36,881 bases of DNA from Planctomycetota bacterium (GTDB lineage: Bacteria > Planctomycetota > Phycisphaerae > UBA1845 > Fen-1342), in contig JACRLV010000299.1 of the NCBI GenBank assembly GCA_016235145.1, forward strand, positions 1 through 36,881, read 5' to 3'. The translations under genes were made by a program, and so were the position numbers. Positions 24,557-25,016 of this stretch are shown here, one piece after another (position 1 is the first letter of the stretch; each line of letters begins with the position of its first letter). Below the pieces are notes generated by a model that saw only the letters and a list, made by a program, of their open reading frames with translations, was not told where the DNA came from and ran no database searches.

Positions 24557-24650
24557 GTTCACCCGAATCCAGGCTGCGACGTGAACAGGAGCGTAGTTGC
24601 CCGGACGCTGTCCTGTCAATCACTTTTGCCGGTCGTCGCCGGCGCAGGGA

Positions 24651-24912
24651 TGCGTGACAGGAACGGCGGGTTTGCAGTTCAGCCCTGGAAGGGCGCAAGA
24701 AGACAGCCCACAGCGCGAGCCGTGGGACGCAGGTACTCGATGTCCGAAGAGCCGCGGAGCGGCGAAAGAGGCGAAAAGGATGAGCAGCAGGTTGGTTCTT
24801 TTGCCGCTCCGCGGTTATCGGCGTCTGAGGCGATAGCCCCCACGGCTCGCGTTGCGGGTGCATCTCCGCCGCGCCTTCGGGGCTGGTTGAATCCCACCGT
24901 TCCTGTCACGCA
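24651..24912. repeat. 262-bp imperfect inverted-repeat element with 16-bp perfect terminal inverted repeats
   Basis: TGCGTGACAGGAACGG (24651-24666) vs CCGTTCCTGTCACGCA (24897-24912); CGCGAGCCGTGGG (24714-24726) vs CCCACGGCTCGCG (24839-24851); CCGCGGAGCGGCGAAAGA (24752-24769) vs TCTTTTGCCGCTCCGCGG (24797-24814, one mismatch). Confidence 0.88.
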
Positions 24913-25016
24913 CCCCTCTTCCAACTCGGCATCACGGCCTGCTTGCCATTCGCCTGCCGCCCTCCGATCATGGCGTCCCGCGCCGCCGGGTGGCGCACAA
25001 CAGGAACGGGGGACGC

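Follow-up and report, generated by a model that had tools for sequence, protein, structure and literature searches.

The window, the 36,881-nucleotide stretch of planctomycete DNA analysed here, contains a divergent gene pair, in which a PSCyt1/PSCyt2/PSD1 gene reads along the minus strand and TerC along the plus strand, and between the two gene starts, where the original prediction had placed it, lies a non-coding element of about 268 bp (24648–24915). That prediction described a 262-bp span bounded by perfect 16-bp terminal repeats, TGCGTGACAGGAACGG and CCGTTCCTGTCACGCA, which are indeed located at 24651–24666 and 24897–24912. The span is real, yet its true ends lie slightly further out, at about 24648 and 24915, as judged by alignment to sister copies in which 9-bp target duplications start just outside GGGTGCG...CGCACCC. 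Both of the hairpins it proposed, CCCACAGC-GCGA-GCCGTGGG (with one A-C mismatch) and GCCGC-GGA-GCGGC, were found, but a third unit on each arm (24681–24695, partner at about 24870–24885) had been overlooked. The resulting feature list, with the basis of each assignment in brackets, is as follows.

24648–24915, no strand: whole element, most probably a degenerate ISKra4-type MITE with a REP-like hairpin cluster (alignment to sister copies)
24648–24669, plus strand: left terminal inverted repeat (TIR) GGATGCGTGACAGGAACGGCGG, consensus GGGTGCGTGACAGTTTCGGCGG (consensus of the own-genome copies; same repeat on locus L186)
24681–24695, plus strand: unit A, short hairpin AGCCCTGGAAGGGCG (recovered in the alignment of almost every sister copy; makes up the first half of the RF01687 match)
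24681–24726, minus strand: Acido-Lenti-1 (Rfam RF01687), corresponding to units B and A on this strand (cmscan)
24705–24726, plus strand: unit B, long hairpin AGCCCACAGCGCGAGCCGTGGG with a GCGA loop (sister-copy alignment; second half of the RF01687 match)
24750–24769, plus strand: unit C, short hairpin AGCCGCGGAGCGGCGAAAGA, also written AGCCGCGGAGCGGCG, with a GGA triloop (sister-copy alignment)
24797–24816, minus strand: unit C', inverted copy of C (inverted-repeat match)
24838–24860, minus strand: unit B', diverged inverted copy of B (inverted-repeat match)
24870–24885, minus strand: unit A', diverged inverted A-type unit, CGCGCCTTCGGGGCTG (A-B-C...C'-B'-A' order, as in the G019 and G007 copies)
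24894–24915, minus strand: right TIR, plus-strand letters CCACCGTTCCTGTCACGCACCC (inverted-repeat match)

The order from left to right is TIR, A, B, C, spacer, C', B', A', TIR. The inverted arms reach 28 nt at 89% (24646–24673 / 24890–24917), and two inner inverted pairs extend over 20 nt at 90% (24707–24726 / 24839–24858) and 18 nt at 94% (24752–24769 / 24797–24814). Folded as single-stranded DNA the element reaches −89.7 kcal/mol, with a z-score of −8.5 relative to dinucleotide-shuffled sequence, and a cmscan search retrieved RF01687 at 47.2 bits (gathering score 37, E = 8.8e-8). Coding capacity is absent, the overlapping open reading frames being mechanical, and the copies vary by insertions and deletions.

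The element is clearly not single-copy. BLAST returned 40 matches at about 20 places in its own genome (G000, a 4.6-Mb draft, 82% complete), with full lengths mostly of 290–320 bp and with common ends that are sharp in the alignment. Among these copies that of the window is the more diverged; its TIRs are mutated, GGAACGG replacing TTTCGG in both arms, and its right arm keeps an A-type unit where most others carry a C-type one. The departure is identical in the two arms (24651–24666 and 24897–24912), as though one had been copied onto the other. RF01687 matches number 34 in the same genome, often as inverted pairs some 130–160 bp apart, and occur in 28 of the 41 genomes searched (own genome and relatives), one of which holds 111, many of them identical. 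A separate observation concerns relative G007, in which many near-identical Acido-Lenti-1 clusters (L112, L113, L114, L219–L226) sit in a different carrier; its flanks, TCCTAAGAAACTACGAAGGTACATGTTTAACGTTGCAG and, inverted, TGAAAGAAACTACTCCTAGAAAGTACGCGTTTAGCCTTCTGATAG, look as if they terminate another MITE family. An orthologous empty site was sought through the TerC gene and none was found, since its best relatives are about 40–55% identical and scattered over many phyla. Very stable hairpins between two divergent gene starts could in principle serve the host, by bidirectional transcription termination or insulation between PSCyt1 and TerC, but with some 20 other insertion places in the genome, a diverged copy in the window and no T-runs noticed by eye next to the hairpins, such a function can hardly be entertained.

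The ends of the element point to a specific transposon family. The own genome contains the TIR consensus as inverted pairs, and ten of the 27 genomes of the bacterial family have it within two mismatches. Several contigs of relative G014 break just inside this repeat, while one locus (L186) extends across a complete IS bounded by the same repeat, GGGTGCGTGACACTTGCGGCGG...GTGTCACGCACCC. Its transposase matches the ISKra4 profile NF033572 with E = 6e-59 and 200 bits, marginally missing the cut-off of 205, and no other family profile scores near it. The reading frame is apparently split, there is no matching duplication in the G014 assembly, and this is the sole intact IS seen with a near-identical TIR; a 76%-identical relative in G013 (L189) has the variant ends GGTCCGTGAC.../...GTGTCACGGACC. 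A transposase with matching TIRs, which the original prediction had proposed looking for, is thus present in one relative and in variant form in another, but a search of the own genome, 82% complete and with repeats that assemble badly, found no ISKra4 transposase.

Target duplications provide further detail on how the ends behave. Over 27 candidate TIR pairs, flanks agreed at 5.26 of nine bases, at offset 0 only, whereas permuted TIR pairs gave 2.50, with 3.59 as the highest of 1000 values; the agreement spans exactly positions −9 to −1 and drops sharply beyond. Five pairs show perfect 9-bp duplications (AATGGAACG, CCAGCGCCG, GCCTGTCGG, GTCTCAAAC, CTTCCCGGT), four of them being composites that enclose Acido-Lenti-1-type units; the CTTCCCGGT duplication surrounds a composite from a different genus (G016, L252). 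Perfect 9-mers around composites show that what was inserted, as a single piece, was the composite and not a mere empty TIR pair. The copy in the window has no such duplication, as originally noted (three of nine flank bases match), and decay or rearrangement is the likely cause. The suggestion that the element is MITE-like is therefore borne out by its copy number, by TIRs common with an ISKra4-family IS and by 9-bp duplications on sister copies. A 68-bp minimal MITE in G007 (L187, 1456–1521) consists of barely more than two TIRs, with a target duplication matching at eight of nine bases.

The inner units lead to a different enzyme. In G007 a gene for a 150-aa Y1 transposase (PF01797, E = 4e-28) sits between C and C' of a hairpin cluster of this kind. 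When the Y1 genes of the family were searched for and their flanks then run through cmscan, Y1 genes in G007, G003, G042 and G016 proved to have RF01687 on either side, the two matches oppositely oriented and almost constant in their distance from the gene. In other Y1 genes of the group the stems differ, but the hairpins again follow a short-long-short order. Cross-flank inverted repeats exceeded all 100 shuffles at 21 of 24 Y1 loci, with a mean score of 27.7 against 8.3 (maximum 11) for 44 control windows taken within these loci, and flanks with other stems are independent of the RF01687 structure model. Among the Y1 genes of the own genome, loci L020–L026 included none with Acido-Lenti-1-type units, and L133 has the architecture of the Acido-Lenti-1-flanked loci but other stems. 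In G016 (C1:2614693–2619377) four consecutive Y1_Tnp-like matches lie about 1.3–1.6 kb apart, a possible local amplification.

The stems clearly covary. In an alignment of 27 pairs of units, drawn from many genera, 99.1% of cells are paired, and double changes occur in ten of 13 pairs (0/500 shuffles were as good), a count biased toward the model's structure in that most unit pairs were found with it. Selection on stem or protein-binding blocks, which the original prediction had set beside a MITE as an alternative, accordingly agrees both with these compensatory changes and with the identity of the inner blocks as the units that flank Y1 genes. Both alternatives hold, each in a different layer, the MITE in the ends and the structural conservation in the inner blocks.

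The same covariation, together with an RF01687 match above the gathering score and the GNRA-like loops of unit B, is what would be expected of a small structured RNA gene, Acido-Lenti-1 as filed in Rfam, with the surrounding repeats incidental. Against this account, the units reach 34 copies in one genome and 111 in a second, frequently arranged in inverted pairs, they lie on both sides of Y1 transposase genes, and the whole composite is enclosed by 9-bp duplications. The loops are also informative. DNA mini-hairpins are extra-stable when closed by a GNA triloop or a GNNA tetraloop, and in the Y1 flanks GNA triloops account for 75 of 112 loops and the complementary TNC for six; this pattern favours a role as single-stranded DNA, such as a HUH transposase substrate would have, over one as RNA. 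An RNA gene is on these grounds highly improbable.

IS200/IS605 Y1 transposition yields no target duplication. The exact 9-bp duplications are for this reason unexpected if there were a single mobile system here, with the terminal repeat belonging to a Y1 (HUH) element of the TIR-associated tyrosine transposase kind; moreover, the same TIR terminates an ISKra4-family IS and encloses unrelated palindromes, and at most Y1 loci inspected the hairpins are present without an ISKra4-type TIR. What speaks for a single system is that TIRs flanking Y1 genes have been described (PMC3733652) and that the distance from TIR to unit A is near-constant, 29–34 nt, in five genera (G000, G007, G010, G016 and G019), including a G007 copy that contains the Y1 gene. 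The balance makes this account very unlikely, and two nested layers of distinct origin remain the preferred reading, under which the near-constant spacing suggests one old composite behind the copies in five genera instead of many insertions.

Acido-Lenti-1 units are not the only passengers of these ends. Further palindrome families lie within the same TIRs, and one of them at least is also found flanking a different Y1 transposase. Palindromes of the TAGCGTCCG/GTCGGACC type lie on both sides of other Y1 genes (L022, L276, L277, L284), and those of the CCGAGCCCC type near some (L280, L281, L287). By simple hairpin scores, perfect hairpins in MITE interiors of the CCGAGCCCC type are no longer than in shuffles, so that this test gives no ground for calling all MITE interiors palindromic. 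Within the own genome, a second type of Y1 gene lies between inverted GTAGCGTCGGACCTCCGAGTCCGACG palindromes (L022, 1–700, G000:C337), likely a REPtron. Three further loci of this genome (L118, L119, L120) carry a 163-bp MITE with the same TIRs and the interior TGGCACTGTCAACG.../...GGCCAAGCGAGTACGCTTGACCGTGCC, one copy having the perfect 9-bp duplication GTCTCAAAC; a search for a Y1 partner of these palindromes found none. The association between the hairpins of several Y1 transposases and one MITE family looks recurrent, whether the hairpins are captured, insert there in a targeted way or are selected because they do no harm.

Taken together, the element is most probably a decayed non-autonomous ISKra4-type MITE that carries a Y1-transposase REP-like hairpin cluster, in two nested layers. 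An ISKra4-family transposase acting in trans would have moved the whole element through its 22-bp inverted repeats, generating the 9-bp target duplication, while the A-B-C / C'-B'-A' hairpins would be recognition units of an IS200-like Y1 (HUH) transposase, read as single-stranded DNA; movement by these two enzymes themselves is what we infer from the comparisons above. The window element would then be a REPIN-like derivative without the transposase gene that autonomous relatives hold between C and C'. An ancestral hairpin cluster may have come to lie within ISKra4-type ends, captured by a MITE, and ISKra4-type transposases may since have spread the composite with 9-bp duplications, the inner layer presumably being carried mainly by the outer one in the own genome. 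As a broader proposition, to which we incline somewhat, ISKra4-type MITEs of this planctomycete family have repeatedly carried REP hairpins that belong to several different Y1 transposases (those of Acido-Lenti-1, of the TAGCGTCCG type and probably of the CCGAGCCCC type), so that one element is shared by two unrelated transposition systems, and Acido-Lenti-1 is the hairpin that an IS200-like transposase recognises in single-stranded DNA.

MITEs and REPs are already known kinds of element; what appears to be new is the composite, and Acido-Lenti-1 as a REP and not an RNA gene. Literature searches, with most subscription journals outside their coverage, found nothing linking ISKra4, MITE and REP, or linking Acido-Lenti-1 with RAYT or Y1-associated hairpins. 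If the reading is true, an Rfam RNA family is a transposon DNA hairpin, and annotations would be corrected in genomes of Planctomycetes, Acidobacteria and Lentisphaerae. It would also be a case of REP-like hairpins, thought tied to their own Y1 transposase, spreading on the ends of another transposon, and so offer a testable account of how REP families get to new genomic sites, and a single element for comparing two unrelated transposition systems.

Among known systems, the element shares its GGG-starting TIR with an ISKra4-family IS (NF033572) of the same bacterial family and resembles IS-derived MITEs in belonging to a short, non-coding, multicopy family with a 9-bp target duplication; its interior, unlike theirs, consists of REP-like hairpins of another transposase family and is not a deletion derivative of an IS. 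As in the REPIN/RAYT (TnpA-REP) system and REPtrons (PMC3116915, PMC2817692, PMC6006769), multicopy inverted hairpins also flank a single-domain Y1 gene and non-autonomous copies lack the transposase gene, but here each arm has three hairpins where those systems have a single REP, and the hairpins are nested in the MITE of another transposase. A GT[AG]G foot 5' of the hairpins was looked for and not found, the preceding bases being mostly TA, CA or GA, and the one Y1 protein scanned scored 23.7 bits with the REP-associated tyrosine transposase profile NF047646 (cut-off 80), as against 76.7 with IS200 NF033573 (cut-off 55) and 98.5 with PF01797. Because the foot is absent and the profile scores fall below the RAYT and above the IS200 cut-off, the system was not filed as RAYT proper.

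The Acido-Lenti-1-flanked Y1 proteins have class-1-like motifs (DHVH, WQ, Y---Q) and come closest to TnpA-Y1 subclass 1.2, in which Quentin et al. 2018 (PMC6006769) report no REPs. The TnpA-Y1 class 3 of that study has Planctomycetes and Acidobacteria hosts, several 'atypical' flanking structures in these phyla and large copy numbers, with about 600 in Solibacter, all of which recall the present case, but its motifs NHVH, W[TA] and Y----Q (YV[VI][AENY]EQ) are absent from the Acido-Lenti-1-flanked Y1 proteins read, and the label was dropped on this basis (L128 has DDHVH, WQ and YIAEQ). Acido-Lenti-1 itself, proposed as a non-coding RNA (PMC2864571), is matched by the identical 46-nt two-hairpin motif above the gathering score, although the motif here appears to behave as a mobile DNA hairpin pair. 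Finally, GTAG/CGTC palindromes and TIRYTs (PMC3733652) offer a parallel in which palindromes or TIRs flank Y1 genes, with Acidobacteria among the examples, whereas in the present case the TIR belongs to an ISKra4-type IS, with more than one palindrome family, indeed several, found inside it.
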